Below the pieces are notes generated by a model that saw only the letters and a program-made list of their open reading frames with translations, did not search any database and had not been told where the DNA came from. Source: Coffea arabica (taxonomy: Eukaryota; Streptophyta; Magnoliopsida; Gentianales; Rubiaceae). From it: DNA of 64,000 nt. Position numbers and translations under genes: made by a program. Location of the stretch: positions 22,204,501 to 22,268,500 of the forward strand of contig NC_092323.1 of the NCBI RefSeq assembly GCF_036785885.1, read 5' to 3'. Shown one piece after another: positions 3,097-53,570 of the stretch (its first letter is position 1; each line of letters starts with the position of its first letter).

Positions 3097-4596
3097 GGAA
3101 AAATCGTCACTTTAGTCCTTAAACTATTTTACTTATGCCAATTTCATCCCTCAATGTTATTTTAGCCTAATTTAGTCCTTCAACTTAAATTTCTTGTCCA
3201 ATTAGATCCTTTTACGGCTGCACCGCCCAATAAACTTTTTCCGACACAAAAAGCACTACTGAAACAAAGGGCAAGAATGGAAGTAGAAGTCTTGTCCTAC
3301 ATTAAAATAAAGAAATCTGAAAACTTTTCATCTAATGGGGTAAAACAAAAATTTTACACTAAATTGGGGAGAAAAATAAAATATCTGTAAAAGAAGATCC
3401 CAATTTTCATCTCCATTTATCACTAGTCAACAAGTCATCACCAACTATGTCACCAATCTTCTTTGGCAAACTTCCGAAACAAGGACGTCGTCTTTTTGAA
3501 CTCTTAAATCAATGGCCATTCTTAACTGGACAATCTGAGACTCCTCTCTAAATTTGTAAATATTTCTACAAATGAGGCACTGTAACTTTTTGTTTTAACT
3601 CTCACATATTTTCTGCCAGTATTGCTGCATTATTAATTCCAGAGGATTCATTAATTGGGAAAAAAGCCTGTGTGATTGTCGTAAAAGCAACTCATTTGTA
3701 GGATATTTTTGTGAGCAGTTTTTTGGCTCAATATGTACTCTACATTGTGATAGTTCTTTGCTCAATATGTATTCTAGATTGCATTTTGTTGAAGAGGCCC
3801 GAAAAGTGTTTGATGAAATGTTTAAGAGAATTATAGTTTCATGAACCACCATGGTTTGCTAGGTATGCAACCCCTAGACTTGCTATGGAGGCATGTAAAC
3901 TTTTTCAACCTCTATTTGATGGAAGGTAGATAGAGGACTTGAACGAATTTCTTAGAGCTTTTTATGATGATACTGGTGATGGCCCTGGAGAGAAGAGGGA
4001 AAAGCCTTAGCTCCTCTCTATTTGAGACTCGATAGGTTTGGAAAGCATTGACAATTTAATTCCATAAGTTCTGTGCCTTGAAACTTTCCGAATTTTTTGA
4101 CATCTTTGTGAGAAAAAGAACCCAAATAAAAAAGAAAAGAATGAGGAGGCGATGGAATCCAAGAAATGAAATATAGAATGAGAGAAGATGGTGATGCTTA
4201 AGGAAAGGTTGTGATTGATAATTATTAGTAGATGGTAGTAATAGTGAAAATTTTTGTTAGGAGACTAGGTATGATTTGGGTTGGGGCAAAATGCTTTGAC
4301 GTAGAAGGATAATTCAGATTCTCTTTTGACGATCTCTATTTTCTTTCCCAATTTTGTGGAAATCGTTTAATGGAAATAGTTTTGTTGGGTTCTAACTTTG
4401 GCCCTAACTTTGTAATTCCTAGATTGCCCTTAATTGGGTGGTGAATTTGTGCCTGAAAGATTTTAATTGGTGGTGCGTGGAAAGGATTTAATTGGACAAG
4501 AAATTTAAGTTAAAGGACTAAATTAAGCTAAAAAGACATTGAGGGATGAAATTGACATAAGTGAAATAGTTTAATGACTAAAATGGCGATTTTCCC
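3097..4596. mobile_element. non-autonomous MULE-type element, 1.5 kb
   Basis: The ends are inverted repeats of about 115 bases. The left end starts GGAAAAATCGTCACTTTAG and the reverse complement of the right end starts GGGAAAATCGCCATTTTAG; both continue through a CAATTTCATCCCTCAATG block. The flanks are nine-base near-duplicates, ATTGCTATT (3088-3096) and ATTACTATT (4597-4605). A nine-base target duplication with long TIRs is the Mutator-like signature. No transposase frame is visible inside; the interior could be captured host sequence but I do not recognise it. Confidence 0.8.
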
Positions 4597-20147: not shown

Positions 20148-20708
20148 ATGGCTGTAAATCTGATTGGAGACACTGCTTTTGGGATGGTTTTTAATGGACT
20201 GGTGGAAGCAGTTTTAGAAGCAACCACCAGAGTGACTACGTTCAGTTCCAGCCTCAACAGTTTGAAGACAACTCTTGCTCCGCTCAAGTGTTACTTCGAT
20301 CAAGTGGAGACGCTGAATGGGAAGCTGCACAGCCCTCAGAGAGAAACAGACATGTTCATCCTTCGTTTAGCAGAAGGGGAGAGTCTCGTGCGCAAATGCA
20401 CAAGAATCAAGTGGTGGAATTTGTACAAGAAGTACTCCTATTCCAAGAAAATCGCTGATTTGGAACGTTCCCTCATTCGATTCTTTCAACTGGATGTGCA
20501 AGCGGAGATGGTCAGGGACCATAAGATGCTCTTGGTCGGGGAGGCTGATCTACACGAGCAATTGAATGCTGTCAACCACAGACTTGATCGACTACTTTCT
20601 GTTGTCAAGAACGTTGTTCAAGAACCCTACTTTCAAGATCGTTGTTGCACTGTCCTGGGGTGCCAAAATTCAGAGAATCAATGCCCTAAACAAAGCGATG
20701 TTGCTTGA
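20148..20708 (+). CDS. RPW8-domain protein, stand-alone, copy 1
   Basis: A single exon of 186 codons. The N-terminal 150 residues fit the RPW8 (CC-R) domain: hydrophobic start LIGDTAFGMVFNGLVEAVLE, four amphipathic helices, the motif GESLVRKCTRIKWWN followed by KKYSYSKKIADLERSL, then FFQLDVQAEMVRD. RPW8 domains form membrane-associated four-helix bundles in broad-spectrum resistance proteins (RPW8.1/8.2) and head ADR1/NRG1 helper NLRs. No NB-ARC or LRR follows: the frame ends with a Cys-containing tail (DRCCTVLGCQNS) and the 3' flank has only DUF2828 remnants. It is therefore either an RPW8.1/8.2-like gene or the severed head of a helper NLR. The protein is identical to that of copy 2; one synonymous base differs (ACT/ACA at codon 30). 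Confidence 0.9.
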   Translation: MAVNLIGDTAFGMVFNGLVEAVLEATTRVTTFSSSLNSLKTTLAPLKCYFDQVETLNGKLHSPQRETDMFILRLAEGESLVRKCTRIKWWNLYKKYSYSKKIADLERSLIRFFQLDVQAEMVRDHKMLLVGEADLHEQLNAVNHRLDRLLSVVKNVVQEPYFQDRCCTVLGCQNSENQCPKQSDVA

Positions 20709-27287: not shown

Positions 27288-27848
27288 ATGGCTGTAAATC
27301 TGATTGGAGACACTGCTTTTGGGATGGTTTTTAATGGACTGGTGGAAGCAGTTTTAGAAGCAACCACCAGAGTGACAACGTTCAGTTCCAGCCTCAACAG
27401 TTTGAAGACAACTCTTGCTCCGCTCAAGTGTTACTTCGATCAAGTGGAGACGCTGAATGGGAAGCTGCACAGCCCTCAGAGAGAAACAGACATGTTCATC
27501 CTTCGTTTAGCAGAAGGGGAGAGTCTCGTGCGCAAATGCACAAGAATCAAGTGGTGGAATTTGTACAAGAAGTACTCCTATTCCAAGAAAATCGCTGATT
27601 TGGAACGTTCCCTCATTCGATTCTTTCAACTGGATGTGCAAGCGGAGATGGTCAGGGACCATAAGATGCTCTTGGTCGGGGAGGCTGATCTACACGAGCA
27701 ATTGAATGCTGTCAACCACAGACTTGATCGACTACTTTCTGTTGTCAAGAACGTTGTTCAAGAACCCTACTTTCAAGATCGTTGTTGCACTGTCCTGGGG
27801 TGCCAAAATTCAGAGAATCAATGCCCTAAACAAAGCGATGTTGCTTGA
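27288..27848 (+). CDS. RPW8-domain protein, stand-alone, copy 2
   Basis: A single exon of 186 codons with the same protein as copy 1. The RPW8 domain spans residues 1 to about 150 (GESLVRKCTRIKWWN, KKYSYSKKIADLERSL, FFQLDVQAEMVRD), followed by a helix (LHEQLNAVNHRLDRLLSVV) and a Cys-containing tail. The family acts at membranes in basal and NLR-mediated immunity; action here is inferred. The near-identity extends about 250 bases upstream and 200 downstream and then stops, unlike the rest of the duplicated unit. It could be the N-terminal remnant of a helper NLR, as no NB-ARC follows. Both copies have intact frames and promoters, so both may be expressed. Confidence 0.9.
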   Translation: MAVNLIGDTAFGMVFNGLVEAVLEATTRVTTFSSSLNSLKTTLAPLKCYFDQVETLNGKLHSPQRETDMFILRLAEGESLVRKCTRIKWWNLYKKYSYSKKIADLERSLIRFFQLDVQAEMVRDHKMLLVGEADLHEQLNAVNHRLDRLLSVVKNVVQEPYFQDRCCTVLGCQNSENQCPKQSDVA

Positions 27849-44010: not shown

Positions 44011-44498
44011 ATCACATCAAAATTAAACATTGTAAATCACTATCAAAATGAGTAAAAATGTGACAAAATTAAATATTTTGTGGTAGAATGGCCGCAGAGT
44101 TGGTAGACAAGTCAAAGAACCAGTTACTAGGGTTACTAGGGATGTTACGCTTGAAAATCACTCACAATCCCACCTAAGACGAGGAAAGTCAACGAAGTGA
44201 TGGAAACTAACAATTGCCTTTAGGAACCTCTTGATATAGGAGGGAGATGTTCCACTTTTCTTATCTTCTTTCATTTATATTTTGTACAATTAAGCATTTT
44301 TAGGTGGATATAAATAAGTATACACCATATAATTTAGTAAACTGCACCACTACATTGGAGGAGAATATTGACTTCACCTAAAGTAGCCATTTAGTACAAG
44401 TTCAAAATGTTTGACACCCTCTTTATAATGTCCCATATCAGAAGCCAAGAGCAGAAATGATATAAGTATAACATTGGACCTATGGATTATTATATAAT

Positions 44499-44719
44499 GG
44501 AAAAATGGCCAATTTAGTCCCTATACTTTTTTTTACTGTCAATTTAGCCCTTACATAATTTTTTTGGCCAATTTAATCCCTATACTTATTTATTGGTTCC
44601 AATTGAGGATCTCCGCGGCAGCGCCACCTTGTAATTGCAATCAAACGTCTAATTGAGCACTTAAGCATGGGCATTTCTGGTACTTCACTGTTGGGGCTCT
44701 TTTTCAGAAGTAAAAATCA
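44499..44719 (+). repeat. MULE left terminal inverted repeat
   Basis: It pairs with 50397-50617. Inner landmarks shared in inverse are CTCCGCGG, TCTAATTGAGCACTTAAGC, TACTTCACTGTTGGGGCT and TTTTCAGAAGTAAAAATCA. It would supply the promoter and 5' end of the transposase transcript, whose ATG lies about 205 bases further in. Confidence 0.9.
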
Positions 44720-44924
44720 AAACCAAAAATTTACCAGCACACTTTTTATCACCATTGAGAAAAACCCAAACCTGAAACCTCAACTCTTTCTTGCAAAAAC
44801 TGACTGAAATCGACTGAAATGGTGATGAATAAGGAAATGTAGTGGCATAGGAAGTCGAAGGATGGAGGTAGCAAGTGACGAAAGGCGCGAAAGAAGAAAT
44901 TTTGAGAAAGAGGGGTCAACAAAA

Positions 44925-47900
44925 ATGGGTAAGTTGAGCCACTTAAATTTGTTTGATTTGTTATGTTAATAGCTTAATGAAGTTCGGTGTGGGTTTGTCT
45001 TGCCCTAAACAGCAAGTATTGTAGTTTAATAGCAAGATCAATTGAAATGTGGTTGGAAAAAGGGCTCTATTTTTTGTTTTTCCTTTTTTTTTTTTCTGAA
45101 AATGGGTTCATGTGGTCCATGGCTGTAAATTTAATTCATTATGTTAATAGCTTAATGAAGTTCGGTGTGGGTTTGTGTTGTTGTGTATAGCAAGTATTGT
45201 ACTTTAATAGCAAGATCGATTGAAATGTGGTTGGAAAAAGGGCTCTGTTTTTAGTTTTTCCTTTTTTTTTTTTGAAAAGGGGTTCATGTGGTCCATGCCT
45301 ATAAATTTAATTTGTCATGTTGCTTTCATGTCTCTCAAAAGGCAGACAATGACTGTAAATTACAAATTATGGTAGTAATTTTTTTATTTGTTTGGAAAAA
45401 AAATAGGTGATGACTCGGATATATTCACTCTGTATATCTACTCTGGTGGGGCATACATTGAAGAACCAGAACCAAAATATGTGGGGGGTACCATGGAGCA
45501 TTTTGATAGGGTTTAAGCCCCCAAGATTAACGTAGCTTCTGTGTTAAGCTTTGGTCATTTACTTGGATGTGATGAAAAGGCCAGCTACAGATATAGAATC
45601 CTTACCATAGATGGGAGACTGAGAGTTAGACAAATAGACAGTGAACAGGACGTCATGGACATGGCTGCTATAGGTAAACAAATTGGAAAAGTTGAACTTT
45701 ACATTGTCCAAGAGTTTCATATTAGATCCATGGAACCTAGCAAGAACAGGGCAGTTTTCCAGAGAGACAGTGAGAATGAAAAAAAAGATCTACTGTATGT
45801 GGACATCACATATGATGAATTCTTTGGGAATGAAGAACTTACAGAACTTACAGTTGATGTGACTAAAGTAGATTGGGGGGAAATAAAAAAGGGTAAACAG
45901 AGAGGTGCTAATGTGATTGAAAAATATGAAGGTGCAGATAATAAAATTGAACCAGAATTAGAGGAAACGGATGGTGGTGAAAGCTTTCATGATAGTGACT
46001 ATGATTTTAAGGAAGACGAAGATGACATAATATACAAGAATTGTGCAACTACTGCTGATATCAAAATTGATGGTCAGAGGAGTGTAGATGATGCTAGTTA
46101 TGGAGGGGAAAAAGCCACTGGTGAAGAGAAGAAAGGATCAGAGCAGCCACAAAAAGCCAAAGCAAAAGCAAAAGGAAAAGGAAGTCTTGTTGCTGACCAT
46201 GACTGTGATATTTATAATGGTGACCAAATTCCTGTCCAAGAGGAATCTGATTCCATCAACACGGAGAAGTTTAATAGTTGCTCTAGTAGCTCGGATGAAA
46301 ATACCTCAAGAAAGAAGCCGAAATATGCAAGGTTCAAGCCAGATATTGATATGAAGGACCCCAAATTATATGTTGGTTTACTATTTGACACTAAGAAGAT
46401 GTTTAAAAGAGCTATTGAATATTATTCTGTGCAGTGGGGCAAAGGGCATGGCTGGCAAAAGAATGATAAGAACAAGATCAGAGCAAAATGCAAGAAAGAG
46501 AAATGCAACTGGTTTGTTTATGCTACAAAAGAACCAGATTGCGATGCATTCGTGATAAGAGCGATGGGGCAACAAAATCAATGTGGTAGAACTTTCTATC
46601 ACAAACATGCAAATTTTGGTTTTTTGGCTAGGCATTACATGGAGTTCCTGCGGATGAATAGAAAGGTTACGATTGGTGCATTTAAGGACAAGGTGCATGA
46701 AGAACTGAATGTGAACATCACAAAAAGATTAGGCTTATACGACCTTTGGGAAAGCCAAAATTCTGATCCAAGGAAAATATAAGCAAAAATACACAAGAAT
46801 TTGGGACTATTGTGAGGAATTGTTGAGCTCAAATCCTGGTTCCACAGTGCATGTAGTGACGGAGGCTAATGAATTTAGTGGAAAAGAGAGATTCAGAAGA
46901 CTATACATTTGTTTTGCAGCCTTGAAAAAAGGTTTTAAAGAAGGTTGTCGGCCTATACTTGGTGTGGATGGGTGCCATCTAAGAGGACCACATCCTGGAG
47001 TGCTTTTGACAGCTGTAGGGATAGATGCTAATGATTGCATCTATCCTGTTGCATATGTAGTGGTTGAGACCGAGAACAAGAGTTCTTGGACATGGTTCAT
47101 TGAATTCTTAAAGTTTGATCTCACAATCCAGGACCAAAAACAATGTACATTTATCAGTGATAGGCAAAATGTATGGCTAAGTAATTAAGAAATTTTTTTG
47201 TTGGAAAACTACTTTATAATGACTAATTAGTGAATTTTTTTGTAATTTTATCTAACAGGCTTTGGATTCCCCCATCCAAGATATTCTTCCTGGAGTGGAG
47301 CATGACACTGTGTTAGGCATTTACACAACAATTTCAAAAAGGTCCATCCCGGAGAAACACTCAAGTGTATGTTTTGGGCTTGTGCAAGATCCTCATATGT
47401 GAATAAATTTGAAGCTGAAATGGATATGTTAAGGCAGTATGATGAGAAAGCACACAAATGGCTAGTGGATAACACATCACCATACCATTGGTCCAGATCA
47501 CATTTTAGGATCACGGTGAAATGTGATATTTTTCTCAATAATCTGTGTAAGAGCTTTAATTCTGTTATATTAGATGCAAGAGAAAAGCCCATCCTTAGTA
47601 TGCTTGAAAACATTAGGATATACCTAATGAAAAGACTTAGGAAAAAAAGGGAATGGATGAGAAAAAGAAGTGATATTATTTGTCCAAAAGTTAAAAAAAA
47701 AAAATTGAAAAGGCAAAGGATGATGCTAGATCAAATATTGCCAGATGGTCTGATGATGACAGATTTGAGGTGACACATATGTATGGGGCCAAGTTTGTTG
47801 TTGACTTAAAGGCGAAGACATATACATGTAGAAAATGGGAACTCACTGGTTTACCGTACTCTCATGCTATAGGCTGCATTGCTTTGACCGGAGTCGAGCC

Positions 47901-48758
47901 TAAAAGTCTAGTAGTGCATCCATATTACTCAAGGTATGCATATCTAAAGGCTTACGAGCCAGCTATTGGTCCAATTAATGGACCTAATAACTAGAAAAGG
48001 TGTAAGAGGGCCCCTATGTATGCACCTAAGAAACTAAAACTTCTCGGTAGGCCTAAGAAGGCAAGGAGGAGAGAGCCGGATGAGCCACGAAGTGATTCCA
48101 AAGGGTGCACAAGACTGTCTAGAAAGGGTATTACACGTATGACTTGCTCTCTTTGTCATCAAAAGGGCCACACTAAAAGAAGATGTCACCTTAGCATGGA
48201 AGGAGTGGACAACAATCAAAGAATACCACCTGTGAATAGTAATAGGTGTGGAAAATGCAAGGAACTTAGACACAATGCAAGAACTTGTCCATTGGATGCC
48301 AAGGGAAAAGACGGAACTCATGATGAAACTGGTATGACTAAACTCCTATTTTCTTTCATGTTGCACTATTTTAGTTAGCAGCTACTAATCTGTTTTAGTT
48401 GTTGCTGCTTCTTCTATGGATGGGAATACTAGCTTACCACGTGATAATGAGACATTTCAAGACTCTCTTACATTGCAAAGAGCTAAAACATATATTGTGC
48501 TTTTAAGTTTTTTAACAACTACTGTAATTGTTGTTGGCTGTTTACTGTTTGATGAACACATCTGAAATTTGTCATGTTTTTATAATGCAAGTTGATCAAG
48601 TGCCTGAAGAAATTGATGTTCAACCTACTGCTCCAACTGAAAGCTCTCAGAGGCTCAAAAGGACCATGTGTTTTTTTTTTGTCATGCCTCGGGCTAGACC
48701 AAAAGAACTTGCACTTGCTGCCAAGCACAAGCATGGAGAAACAAGATGGCTACTGTGA
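44925..48758 (+). pseudogene. mudrA: MULE transposase (mudrA type), disrupted
   Basis: Exon 1 is just ATGG (44925-44928). Exon 2 (from 45407) opens DDSDIFTLYIYSGGAYIEEP and a PB1-like N-terminal domain, followed by an acidic linker, the plant MuDR DNA-binding region (FKRAIEYYSVQWGKGHGWQK, near 46400), the MULE catalytic core (GCRPILGVDGCHLRG, near 46950; second Asp in FISDRQ near 47155), an intron (about 47165-47259), a SWIM zinc finger (YTCRKWELTGLPYSHAIGC, near 47820) and two CCHC knuckles (CSLCHQKGHTKRRC and CGKCKELRHNARTC, 48140-48290). Later exons reach about 48758. Breaks: TAA at 45514, frameshift near 46755, one missing base after GVEH (near 47300), frameshift in an A-run near 47695, and TAG for an expected Trp at 47992. 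No active transposase can be made as read. Confidence 0.92.
44961..45310. repeat. 178-bp tandem duplication inside transposase intron 1
   Basis: Copies start at 44961 and 45139 with TTATGTTAATAGCTTAATGA and contain TTGAAATGTGGTTGGAAAAA. They differ by a few substitutions and indels. The duplication lengthens the first intron between the 4-base exon 1 and exon 2. Confidence 0.85.
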
Positions 48759-49721
48759 AAAGGAGAAAACAAAGGGTAACTTTTTTGGGGCCACAAAATC
48801 GTATATAAATTATTGATTTTAATTTACTCTTAGAGGTTCTCACTACGTATAAATTTGCAATCTCATAGGATACTCGATGAGCTGGATGATTAGTGAAAAT
48901 GAATGCAACTAGATGATGACGTTGCTGATAAAGTTGTTTTTGAATTGACTGTTTTTGGGCTGATAAAGCTGGCTGATGAAGTTGCTAGATGAATGCAGCT
49001 ACATATGAAGCTGATGAAGTTGCTAGATTAAGTTTGTTGTTTTTTTTCTTGTCCTTTTTGGTAGTAACAACTGCAATTTGATGTCCAGACCTTTATATCA
49101 TGGGCTTCACTTGCTTTTGTAATGAATCCTGTCACTTATTGTTTTTTGCTGCTAAGACTTCTAATCTAATGAATTCTGGATTATGGAAGTTTTCCTACGT
49201 GCTGTGATTGAGTTCTGGATCAATATGGTAGATTTCCTAGGAACTGGATGCTACTTGGAGATGGCATCATATAGTTGCTGGGGGAAACTTTTAGTTGAGA
49301 GCTTTGAATTGACCAGAAACTTTTAGTTGAGAGCTCTAAATTGAAAATTTCAGATGTGTGTTTGCGTATTTAACTTGGGCTGGAGTAAAAGACTCGATTG
49401 GACATGGTAAACATGGCTTAAAAAGAAGTTAGGGGATTTTACCAACAATCTAATGAGCAATTCTTCCACTCCAACCAACAATGACCAAATAATAACATAT
49501 ATACATCACCAAAAACTCACTGAAGACTGAAGAAAGTTGCTTTCCTTGATATTCAACATTGAATTTGTAAACATACAACCGGGAACTCAAAACTATTACA
49601 AATCCATAACAATCCATATCCAAAACTATTACATGAAACCTCTGCAATTACTTCATTCAAAGAGGGCAGCATTACATGGTCAAAAACAACTGAAGCTTGA
49701 ACTTTCATATGATGTCCAGAA

Positions 49722-50311
49722 CTACTGCAACATCTTCAATTCACTGAAGCTACCATTTTGCCTTTGAGTGCCCCCGAGTATAGCAACAACTAAAACGCAG
49801 CAACAAGTACAAGCCAAGAACAATATTTTCACTTTTGCCTTCAATTTGCTGATTTCAATCTTCAGTGAAACATTCTCCCTCTCGGTACTTCTCAGTTCCC
49901 TCAAAATTGCAGCCAGGGTATTCTTCATTTTTTGGGGTATGGGTGGATCATACCACAAAAAAAAAATTGCAAGCACCACGTTTCTGCATTCACAACATTT
50001 CATATTCAAAATTCAAGCAATAATTCAACAGAACCTAACATTTAGCACATGCACAAAATTACCCCATAATTTCTGCAACCATGAAATCTTCTTGCTGGGT
50101 TTGCCTCCGTCCATGCTGTCACAATTCTGCATTGTTCACGGCAGTGGCATTGCACGATTTTGTCTCCATTGTAATATTCATCATTTCCTTCATAAATCGG
50201 GCTTTCATGGTCTGCTCCAGGAAACCCGACACCGAAGCTCTTTAGGACTCCATCACTACTTCGTGAGCTTGAGCTTGAGGAAGCTTTGTCCCAATTCCTA
50301 CTTGGATGCAT
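49722..50311 (-). pseudogene. second MULE gene: GRF zinc finger, coiled coil, membrane segment
   Basis: Exon 1 (50311-50063) encodes MHPSRNWDKASSSSSSRSSD, then a GRF-type finger CHCREQCRIVTAWTEANPAR with RFHGCRNYG. A GT..AG intron follows (50062-49984). Exon 2 (49983-49722) begins KRGACNFF, giving the last Cys of the finger, and continues after a frameshift with LWYDPPIP, a coiled coil (ILRELRSTERENVSLKIEIS) and a hydrophobic C-terminal helix (LFLACTCCCVLVVAILGG). The finger is complete only if the run of ten T (49957-49966) had nine; as read, the frame shifts between NFF and LWYDP. GRF fingers bind single-stranded nucleic acid in known proteins (TOP3A, APE2, NEIL3); the role here is unknown. 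The start lies 86 bases inside the right TIR, so the TIR probably drives it. Either a frameshifted gene or a homopolymer sequencing error. Confidence 0.82.
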
Positions 50312-50396
50312 TTCGCTGCAGTGATTTCGTCCAGAGCTACCGAGCAGATCAGATCTCCAATAACCGTAGGATTACAAATCAATTTGTATGTATGTA

Positions 50397-50617
50397 TGAT
50401 TTTTACTTCTGAAAAGAAGCCCCAACAGTGAAGTACCAGAAATGCCCACGCTTAAGTGCTCAATTAGACGTTTGATCGTAATTACAAGGTAGCACCACCG
50501 CGGAGATCCTCAATTGGAACCGATAAATAAGTATAGGGATTAAATTGGCCAAAAAAATTATGTAAGGACTAAATTGACAGTAAAAAAAAGTATAGAGACT
50601 AAATTGGCCATTTTCCC
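50397..50617 (-). repeat. MULE right terminal inverted repeat
   Basis: Inverse partner of 44499-44719, ending TTTTCCC at 50617 directly before the target duplication TTATATAAT. Likely promoter for the GRF-finger gene. Confidence 0.9.
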
Positions 50618-50869
50618 TTATATAATTTGGGTTATCTATTTTGAACCTATGGTTGCACCTCAAAATTTACTTAGGCCAGTCTGTAAACCTGGGGCATTAC
50701 ACCCTTGTTTATACATGTAATTGACAATTGACCTTTTCACTACAAATATATTATGAAGTTAAATTAATTACTCATGTAAAAGAGCATCTTGTGAGTTAAG
50801 TTAATTACTCATGTAAAAGAGTACCTTGTTGTAATTCACAATTATCTTAGCTTCTTTCTTTCAGTTGTA

Positions 50870-53570
50870 CCATTTAGTTTCCTTTAGTAGATATGAATAT
50901 TAGCATGCCATACAATCTATAAAGTACACCACTATGTTAAAAAAGAGCACCAAGTTGATATGATAGAGAATTGTTTTAACTTATTATAATTTCCTCTTAG
51001 TCATAGATGTACACATTTAAGATATTTAATATACTTTAGAACACATAGGGTGTGCCTCAAAACATAGAGTGACTTTTTTCCACCTAAAACTGAATATTGA
51101 AAGATTTCAAAAGAGTAGATATGAGGAGTAGGTAAAGGATTAATATCCTAAGATCCATCGGAGAAAGACAAATGTCCAAATTTTATAGTTGGACAATTGT
51201 CCTAACTTATTTTGGTTCCTTTTTGGGTCATGGCATACGAATTTTAGAAACGTGGTGTACATTTCCATAGAGATGTTGTATCCAATATCCTATTATAAGA
51301 AAATAACTTTTTCTACTACAAAAGAAATTTGAAAACATCTCAAGAAATAATATGAATAGAGAACCGAGTCCAATAAGGTCCCTCTAAAAAAGCAGAAGGT
51401 CAAACTTACCTTAGGTAGGGAGTTATTCTAACATACTTTTAGTTTTCTCTTAGGCATAGATGTATATATTTTAGAAATTTGGTACAATTTTGCACACATA
51501 AGGTATCTTTGTATAAGAAGAGTTATATATTTTCTAAAAAAAAATGAATGCCAAATAAATTTAAAATAGTAGATATCTAGAGTAGAGTATAGGGCCTAAT
51601 CTCGTAAGGTTCCTCTACAAAATAGGAAAGTTCAAATTATTTATGAAATCTCTTGAGGTGTTTTTAAATCTTTTTTGTAGCACAAAATTTTTTTTTCTTA
51701 TAACGGAGTATTAGGTACACTATATATATAGAAATGTACACCATATTTCTGAAACTTATATACCATGTCCCAAGAAGGAACCAAAATAAGTTATGGCAAT
51801 TTTCAAATTGTGAAATTTGGACATTTGTCTTTCATAGAAATATCTTAGGAAATTACTCCCTTACCTACTCCTCATATCTACTCTTTTGAAGACTTTTGGC
51901 ATTCATATTTAAGAGAAAAAAATGTCATTTTCTTACACCAATGTTTGATGTTACACCCCATGTGAGCCAAAGTATACCAAATCTATCAATTGTGTGCTTG
52001 CATGCTTAGGAAGAAACTAAAAATAAGTTATAATGACTCCTTATCTACATAAGTTTGACTTTTAATTTTTCGAGAGGGCTGTAGTAAGATTAGCTCTCTA
52101 CTTACACTATATATCAAATCTATAGAAGTGTTTTCGAATCTCTTTTGTAGTATAAAAAGTTATTCTCTTACAATAGGTTCTAAGTATATTCATTGTATGG
52201 TAATATACACCATATTATTTAAACCTGTAAGTCATGACACAATATGGAACCAAAGTAAGTGAGTGAGATTGTCCAACTATGTAATTTAATCTTTCCTCCA
52301 TCTTAGAGGAGGCTTAGGAGATTAGTCACTAATCTATACTACATATATGCTATCCTAAAGTTGTTTGACATTTATTTTCTAGGAAAAAGATGTCAATCTT
52401 CTTATACCAAGGCACCGTATGCTAAATTATACCAAATCTTTTTAAATATATACATCTAATCCTAAGAGAGAACTAAAAGTAATTTGGAATGACTCGCTAT
52501 TGAGGTAAGTTTGACATTCGACATTCCCAAAGGGACCTTATTGGGTTTGGACCCTTACTCATATTATTTATCCAACTTCTTGAGGTGTTTCCAAATCTCT
52601 TTCGTAGCACAAAAGGTTCCTTTGTTGTAATAAGGTATTGGATATACCATCTACATAGCAAATGCACAGCACATATGCTACCCGAGATGGAAACAAAGTA
52701 AATTAGAGTGATTGTCCTACTATAAAATTTGGACATTTGTCTTTCTTAGAGGGACCCTAGAAGATTAGTCTCTTACATACTCTTTATATCTACTCTTTCG
52801 AAATATTTTGACATTCATTTTTAAGAGAAAAAAACACGACTCTTCTTATACCAAGGTTTAGTGTATCCTCTATATGTGTCAAAATATTCCAAATCTCTAG
52901 ATTGCATATGTATAGGAATAAAAGAAAACTAAAAGTAAGTTACAACGACTCCTAGTCTAGGTTGATTTTTTGAGAGGACCTTAATGGAGTTGGTTCTCTA
53001 CTTACACTATGTGTCAACTTTCTTGAAATATTTTTAAATATCTTTTGTAGCACGAAAAGGTTATTTTGTTACAATAGACTCTTGTATACCTTCTGTAGGG
53101 CAATGGACACTATATTTCTTAAACTCTTAAGTCATGGCCCAAAAAGGAAGCAAAACAAAGTTAGGGAGGTTGTCCAATAGTATAATTTGAACTTTCCTAT
53201 TTCGTAGAGGAAGTTTAGGAGACTAGTCCCTCCTTTCTTTACATATCTACTATCTTAAAGTTATTTGACATTCTTTTTTTTGGGAAAATATGTTGCTCTT
53301 CTTATACAAAGGTATCATATATGTGCTACATTGTACTAAATTTCTTAAATGTATATATCTATGCCTAAGGGAAAACTAAAAGTAAGTTGGAATGACTCCA
53401 TACCTAAGGAAAATTTGGCCTCGACTTTCCAAGAGAGACTTTATTGGGCTTAGTTCTCTATTCATATTATTTATGAAATCTCTTGATGTGTTTTCAAACC
53501 CTTTTGTAGCACAAAAACTTACTTTCTTTTAATAGAATATTTCTCCTATTACCTAAAATTCTTTTTTTTT
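50870..53570. repeat. degenerate ~450-bp satellite array with internal inversion
   Basis: Recurring blocks are TTTGACATTCATTTT, CTTCTTATACCAAGG, CTAAAAGTAAGTTGGAATGACTC, GAGGTGTTTCCAAATCTCTT and TTTGTAGCACAAAA. Equivalent points fall near 51890, 52364, 52803 and 53251, a period of about 440-475. From about 50870 to 51600 the blocks run in reverse complement (for example TCAAACTTACC, AAACATCTCAAG); after about 51640 they run forward. Divergence between monomers is high. An outlying piece lies at 59700-60240. No gene inside. Confidence 0.75.

Follow-up and report, generated by a model that had tools for sequence, protein, structure and literature searches.

The window, which is the entire stretch of Coffea arabica DNA analysed (64,000 nucleotides), includes a MULE in which a transposase gene and a second gene, predicted to encode a GRF finger protein, converge between long terminal inverted repeats (TIRs) (Table 1). 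The limits given for this element in an earlier sequence-only reading (6119 bp, a 9/9 target duplication and TIRs of ~221 bp) are borne out, with TTATATAAT on both flanks of 44499-50617. The element has the features of the MULE class: (i) transposase domains and (ii) long TIRs with an 8-11-bp target duplication (here 221 bp and 9/9). As in two-gene MuDR-type elements, the second gene is convergent to the transposase and retained across copies; its start (50311) lies 85 bases inward of the right TIR. The window element is a dead copy, a decayed family member in which both genes are broken. Outside the DBD_Tnp_Mut and MULE domains, what remains of the transposase is scattered across other frames and contains stops. 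A Pack-MULE, i.e., a non-autonomous element with a host fragment in place of the transposase, is rejected, as transposase sequence is present in the window copy and in all six full-length siblings fetched. Upstream of the transposase coding part is a direct duplication of ~194 bp (44952-45145 and 45130-45321, 89% identical), with matching blocks in the siblings. Just outside the MULE, at 50984-53541, is a dense array of mutually inverted repeats with arms of 31-285 bp.

Table 1. Positions in the window of the MULE, its ends and its two genes.
Feature	Position	Strand	Basis or remark
MULE element	44499..50617	.	6119 bp; TIR comparison and flanks
Left target-site duplication, TTATATAAT	44490..44498	.	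identical to 50618-50626
Right target-site duplication, TTATATAAT	50618..50626	.	matches left copy 9/9
Left TIR, 221 bp	44499..44719	+	94% complementary to 50397-50617
Right TIR, 221 nt	50397..50617	-	adjoins GRF gene start
Decayed MULE transposase	45403..48375	+	Pfam scan and ORF reading; several frame changes, stops
DBD_Tnp_Mut domain	in 45517-46779	+	Pfam E 4.8e-9
MULE domain	in 46733-47185	+	Pfam E 3.8e-10; other frame than DBD_Tnp_Mut
Two motifs, which we take to be zinc-knuckle-like	in 47995-48375	+	by eye; no Pfam match above cut-off
GRF gene, two exons	50311-49722	-	convergent to transposase
GRF gene exon 1	50063..50311	-	83 codons; Ser-rich N-terminus and first part of finger
GRF gene intron	49984..50062	-	GT..AG, phase 0, 79 nt
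GRF gene exon 2	49722..49983	-	finger end, coiled coil, C-terminal hydrophobic helix, ELKML tail, stop

The sequence-only reading had described the second gene as encoding, in two exons, a protein with a GRF finger, a coiled coil and a hydrophobic helix. This layout stands, by Pfam and by the relatives of the protein; the intact protein does not, as the reading joined two frames. Exon 2 of the window copy changes frame at the T-run 49957-49966, such that GACNFF is in the spliced frame and WYDPP...KMLQ is in another frame past the run, leaving no intact ORF. The intron proposed at 50062-49984 is supported by P0001, a Coffea eugenioides predicted protein that is the closest relative (65% identical over the full length, ELKMLQ tail included, and hence over the junction as far as the final residue), and by six siblings that have a GT..AG intron of 76-80 nt at the matching site. 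In all five unspliced exon-1 ORFs extending as far as the junction, RNYG or KNYG is directly followed by V (GTN); thus, they have the intron donor at the same place. A chance ORF is rejected, as the annotated P0001 matches the gene along its whole length.

The spliced minus-strand product (with X at the frame break) matches Pfam Zn_ribbon_GRF (PF06839) at E 3.3e-6 and 27.5 bits (cut-off 25.9), and P0001 is just under this cut-off at 24.8 bits. In the Pfam scan of the second gene, the GRF finger is the sole match above cut-off, HALZ is weak and below cut-off, and no PMD (plant mobile domain) is found. The C-terminal hydrophobic stretch peaks at 2.78 (Kyte-Doolittle, 19-residue average). The predicted structure of P0001 (mean pLDDT 74.8, pTM 0.42) begins with a disordered N-terminal part, followed by a beta-ribbon finger and a single long helix (residues 96-164) that runs into the hydrophobic stretch. 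The top three Foldseek matches of this model are NEIL3, NEIL3 and the APE2 GRF, all weak (E 0.25-0.92, none at E <= 0.001), and the sequence profile of the wider GRF family matches NEIL3 at E 1.4e-8. Among the GRF relatives with solved structures, DNA repair enzymes predominate; one is an rRNA methyltransferase (ZCCHC4). A widened protein search returns 28 proteins at E <= 10, including those of Coffea arabica, Cinchona, Hevea, Cuscuta, Taraxacum and Paspalum, with Tanacetum relatives at E 0.16-5.2 only; a Ser-rich start followed by GRF finger, coiled coil and hydrophobic end recurs, by eye, in several of the relatives. Nothing was found for the GRF gene in the viral and prokaryote contigs searched. 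The order of finger, coiled coil and C-terminal membrane helix suggests a tail-anchored dimer whose predicted nucleic-acid-binding finger would face the nucleus or cytosol. One Coffea arabica predicted protein, P0014, has an unrelated N-terminal part joined to a GRF exon-1 fragment and is perhaps a chimeric gene model.

Sibling elements that share the TIRs were sought in the window's own genome (1,197,963,845 bases, 131 contigs), in which the right TIR has at least 41 matches listed (40 scored of 636 candidates). Among the matches listed, the TIRs pair by coordinates into eight long elements besides that of the window and five short ones; one long pair spans 26.8 kb, perhaps as a nested element, and one spans 9.8 kb. 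Six of the eight long pairs (L031-L036) and one of the five short (L037) were fetched. The sequence-only reading had proposed asking whether related copies hold the gene, and all six full-length siblings (6271-6475 bp) carry it at the same end and antisense to the transposase, with 92-96% nucleotide identity to that of the window; the other two long pairs, on C13 and C20, each have a GRF match inside them by coordinates. Four of the seven copies (L031, L032, L033 and L035) keep the GRF gene open; in L034 a stop interrupts it, and in L036, as in the window copy, its frame is broken. Some other copies of the transposase are open for about 600 codons (e.g., C9:49772971 and C15:42320714). Target duplications are 9/9 in L032, L034, L035, L036 and L037 and 8/9 in L033; the flanks of L031 match at 5/9 in the 9-bp comparison but have the 8-bp TTAGAAAA at both ends. 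L037 is a short derivative of 1459 bp that is without the GRF gene and the transposase, yet has its 9/9 duplication; thus, the GRF gene is not needed in cis.

Additional GRF copies were noted beside these siblings. At L040 (C9:3203000-3210600), a TIR-like end adjoins the P0001 gene, whose exon 1 matches at 100%; this locus and the window element have 919 bp in common at 72.7%, and the 7.6 kb retrieved contain no transposase. At least 11 genomic copies of this exon 1 reach the same score, and one of them, C6:6211152, has a convergent transposase match ~4 kb away. Two same-score GRF exon-1 copies, C4:64001588 and C4:64004093, face each other 2.5 kb apart and may mark a single element that carries a GRF gene at either end.

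The GRF gene belongs to the element and occurs with the transposase in one orientation across a whole MULE clade of the genome. Using the window sequences as queries, the best 150 of 647 GRF exon-1 candidates and the best 150 of 1751 MULE-domain candidates were compared by position. Within these best-150 lists, 76 GRF-transposase pairs lie within 10 kb (0.38 expected at random), taking in 74/150 transposase and 76/150 GRF matches, and all 76 are convergent, which upholds the convergent second gene of the sequence-only reading. Among the best 150, a GRF partner within 10 kb is found for 12 of 15 transposase matches at >=85% identity and 59 of 76 at 65-85%, and is rarer at low identity (2/5 at 55-65% and 1/54 below 55%). 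Similarly, the GRF copies at >=88% among the matches listed all have a transposase (11/11), ten within 10 kb and the C13 copy inside the same TIR pair. At >=65% identity, 71 of the 91 transposase matches listed have a GRF partner. Counting against a strict association are the other 20, which are without a listed GRF within 10 kb (one is the C13 element, with its GRF inside the same TIR pair at a distance of ~24 kb), and the 74 of 150 GRF matches that are without a listed transposase within 10 kb; these partnerless matches may be decayed, lost or outside the best-150 lists. Transposase identity is correlated with the rank of the GRF partner (Spearman 0.80, n = 73 of 74 linked matches, the points being phylogenetically non-independent), as expected if the transposase and GRF gene descend together.

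Selection on the GRF gene was estimated by pooling the seven copies of the window family, a set of similar copies whose pairs are non-independent; 83 exon-1 codons were compared, after the two additional ones in L035 had been dropped, together with the final 77 of exon 2. The low dN/dS among copies that the sequence-only reading proposed to look for is found for exon 2 (0.23, 0.10-0.46) and for both exons pooled (0.44, 0.21-0.81), the latter signal being carried by exon 2. It is not found for exon 1, where neutrality is not rejected (0.88, 0.38-2.50), which counts against the accessory-gene reading given below, as exon 1 holds most of the finger. By these estimates, the coiled-coil/membrane exon is under purifying selection. 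Identity of the DNA alone is uninformative, as the intron (similarity 0.965) is as similar as the exons (0.957 and 0.952).

A second, more distant group of GRF genes is also found with MULE transposases. The Pfam GRF model matches at least 149 places in the genome (150 scored of 763 candidates) and none in 14 control genomes (0/14). Of these loci, 20 were fetched as one per score/length group, a non-random choice, and in nine (L010, L011, L013, L014, L022, L023, L025, L026 and L027) a transposase lies near the GRF gene. The transposase pieces are about 27-49% identical to that of the window, with weak matches in L010 (best E 8.7e-5) and L013 (5e-6); six 10-kb window pieces, two overlapping, formed the control for this matching. 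In the nine loci, every one of the 36 matched transposase stretches follows the GRF gene downstream, on the opposite strand. The remaining loci of the 20 either have no transposase match or, like L017, are host genes. The GRF genes of this group can each be read as a single intronless frame, and a hydrophobic helix (2.3-2.8) is at or near the C-terminal end in 11 of the 20 loci, including eight of the nine with a transposase; in L014 the open frame continues for 25 residues beyond the helix. Both genes lie between TIRs with a 9/9 duplication in L010 (by script) and L027 (by eye; 8 bp by script). L015 and L024 are GRF-only elements of 1.8-2.3 kb with 9/9 by eye (script: 8 bp for L015, none for L024), while the script search for a target duplication returned none for L014 and a run of A for L009. 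In family F1, dN/dS is 0.13-0.41 in 10/10 pairs (L002 and L010 are the same place, such that pairs with L002 repeat those with L010); in the other family it is 0.33-0.79, a range that counts against the accessory-gene reading given below. When 78 of the 149 GRF-model loci are compared to the listed transposase matches of window type, no pair is found within 10 kb; thus, the distant GRF group goes with other transposases.

A third GRF type of many copies (L018-L021) has a MASSSS... start and an exon 1 of 54-64 residues; a GT donor lies four residues beyond the third Cys in L019, L020 and L021 and is absent in L018. No exon 2 was found for this type by pattern, and no MULE transposase was found within the 10 kb fetched.

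The GRF gene of the window family is likely an ancient capture of a host gene, taken as genomic DNA with its intron. L017 (C14:9437400-9447399) is an APE2-like host gene (best PDB match 5u6z, E 3.8e-21) with a phase-0 intron in its GRF finger, four residues after the third Cys, exactly as in the MULE gene, and this shared position points to the capture of host DNA long ago. An intron that is old in all plant GRF genes would give the same shared position. It is a tentative but tenable view that the two groups gained their GRF genes independently and not from a common two-gene ancestor: the GRF profiles of the groups match across the finger only (37 columns, E 3.6e-5), and the gene of the second group is a single open frame. 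Against independent gain, the arrangement, size range and layout are alike in both groups.

Second genes on the antisense strand of MULEs are already known, and include mudrB and the PMD genes (in sections of PMC6446971) and the ORFR of Abermu (in sections of PMC9168764). A GRF second gene of a MULE was not found in titles, abstract openings and text passages, a search to which most subscription literature and Repbase are external; the word GRF is absent from PMC9168764 and from the main text of PMC6446971. The coffee element resembles maize MuDR (mudrA, mudrB) in its long TIRs, 9-bp target duplication, MuDR-type transposase and opposite-strand second gene, but differs in that the second protein has a GRF finger and membrane helix. 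Abermu type II elements, as passages of PMC9168764 present them, similarly have an antisense second ORF (ORFR) between the transposase and 3' TIR; by contrast, ORFR is described there as unlike MURB and as without detectable similarity between distant species. The MUDR, MUDRAVI2 and MDR clades have a second gene that is antisense in most or some members, per portions of PMC6446971, but theirs has a PMD domain, of which the coffee GRF gene has no match. The APE2/NEIL3 GRF proteins share the finger sequence, and the coffee APE2-like gene the intron site; they are repair enzymes, whereas the MULE protein is small, membrane-tailed and encoded in a transposon.

On present sequence evidence, the GRF gene is a conserved accessory gene and not a one-off capture. 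The sequence-only reading had asked which of these applied, and the siblings (6/6) and convergent pairs (76/76) speak for an element gene, with an old host origin likely from the APE2-like intron. A host gene captured once by the window copy is rejected on these same counts, and retains practically no probability. It is also quite improbable that the gene is a passenger, i.e., an old host capture that rides along with no function for the element. The intron position shared with the APE2-like gene, the exon 1 dN/dS near 1 in the window family and the capture of host genes known in some MULEs (in part of PMC9168764) are consistent with a passenger, but one orientation is kept across the clade in every listed pair, exon 2 is under apparent selection, and a second MULE group has a GRF gene in the same arrangement.

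The reading we consider probable is that of a two-gene MuDR-type MULE in which the convergent, conserved GRF gene is the element's accessory gene, encoding a helper of tail-anchored layout. The GRF protein would act in trans and be expressed from the right TIR; its finger would bind single-stranded nucleic acid, the coiled coil would pair subunits and the C-terminal helix would fix the finger to the nuclear envelope or the ER. Anchored there, the finger might handle single-stranded transposon ends or target gaps, as a helper like mudrB, or shield element transcripts. By analogy, help in transposition is our first choice of role and protection against silencing the second. A gene dedicated to defence against silencing, whose membrane-anchored product would shield element transcripts or small RNAs, is the less likely form of accessory gene. 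Plant small-RNA work occurs at membranes, which the tail-anchored layout would fit, and selection is detected on the coiled-coil/membrane exon. An anti-silencing role is ascribed to vanC of an Arabidopsis MULE in a section of PMC6446971, the proposed likeness to VANC being one of role. The repair enzymes that prevail among the solved GRF relatives, with a single rRNA methyltransferase, argue against a shield of this kind. For help in transposition, mudrB is reported as needed for insertion in one passage of PMC9168764 and is called of unknown function in one of PMC6446971; counting against a required role, mobility is also apparent for Abermu elements that have no antisense ORF (PMC9168764, in part).

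The role of MULE second genes is thus posed as an open question in the sections cited, for mudrB (PMC6446971) and ORFR (PMC9168764). In the coffee case, the second gene has a recognisable, predicted nucleic-acid-binding finger and a membrane tail and can be counted across a clade, which makes the question testable. Beside mudrB/PMD and VANB/VANC, a third dedicated class of plant MULE accessory gene can be put forward with some reserve: a tail-anchored GRF protein, derived from a host gene with its intron, that would tether single-stranded transposon DNA or RNA to the nuclear/ER membrane, would be present in two or more distant MULE groups and could be behind much of the GRF expansion of the genome. 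In turn, plant genes that carry the annotation of a GRF-type domain protein may belong to transposons.

Elsewhere in the window, a 1500-bp element at 3097-4596 has ends that are 74% and 72% identical to the MULE left TIR over 106 bp and an 8/9 target duplication (ATTGCTATT/ATTACTATT). Two ORFs ~7 kb apart (20148-20708 and 27288-27848) encode 186 residues each with the same translation, which suggests a recent duplication.
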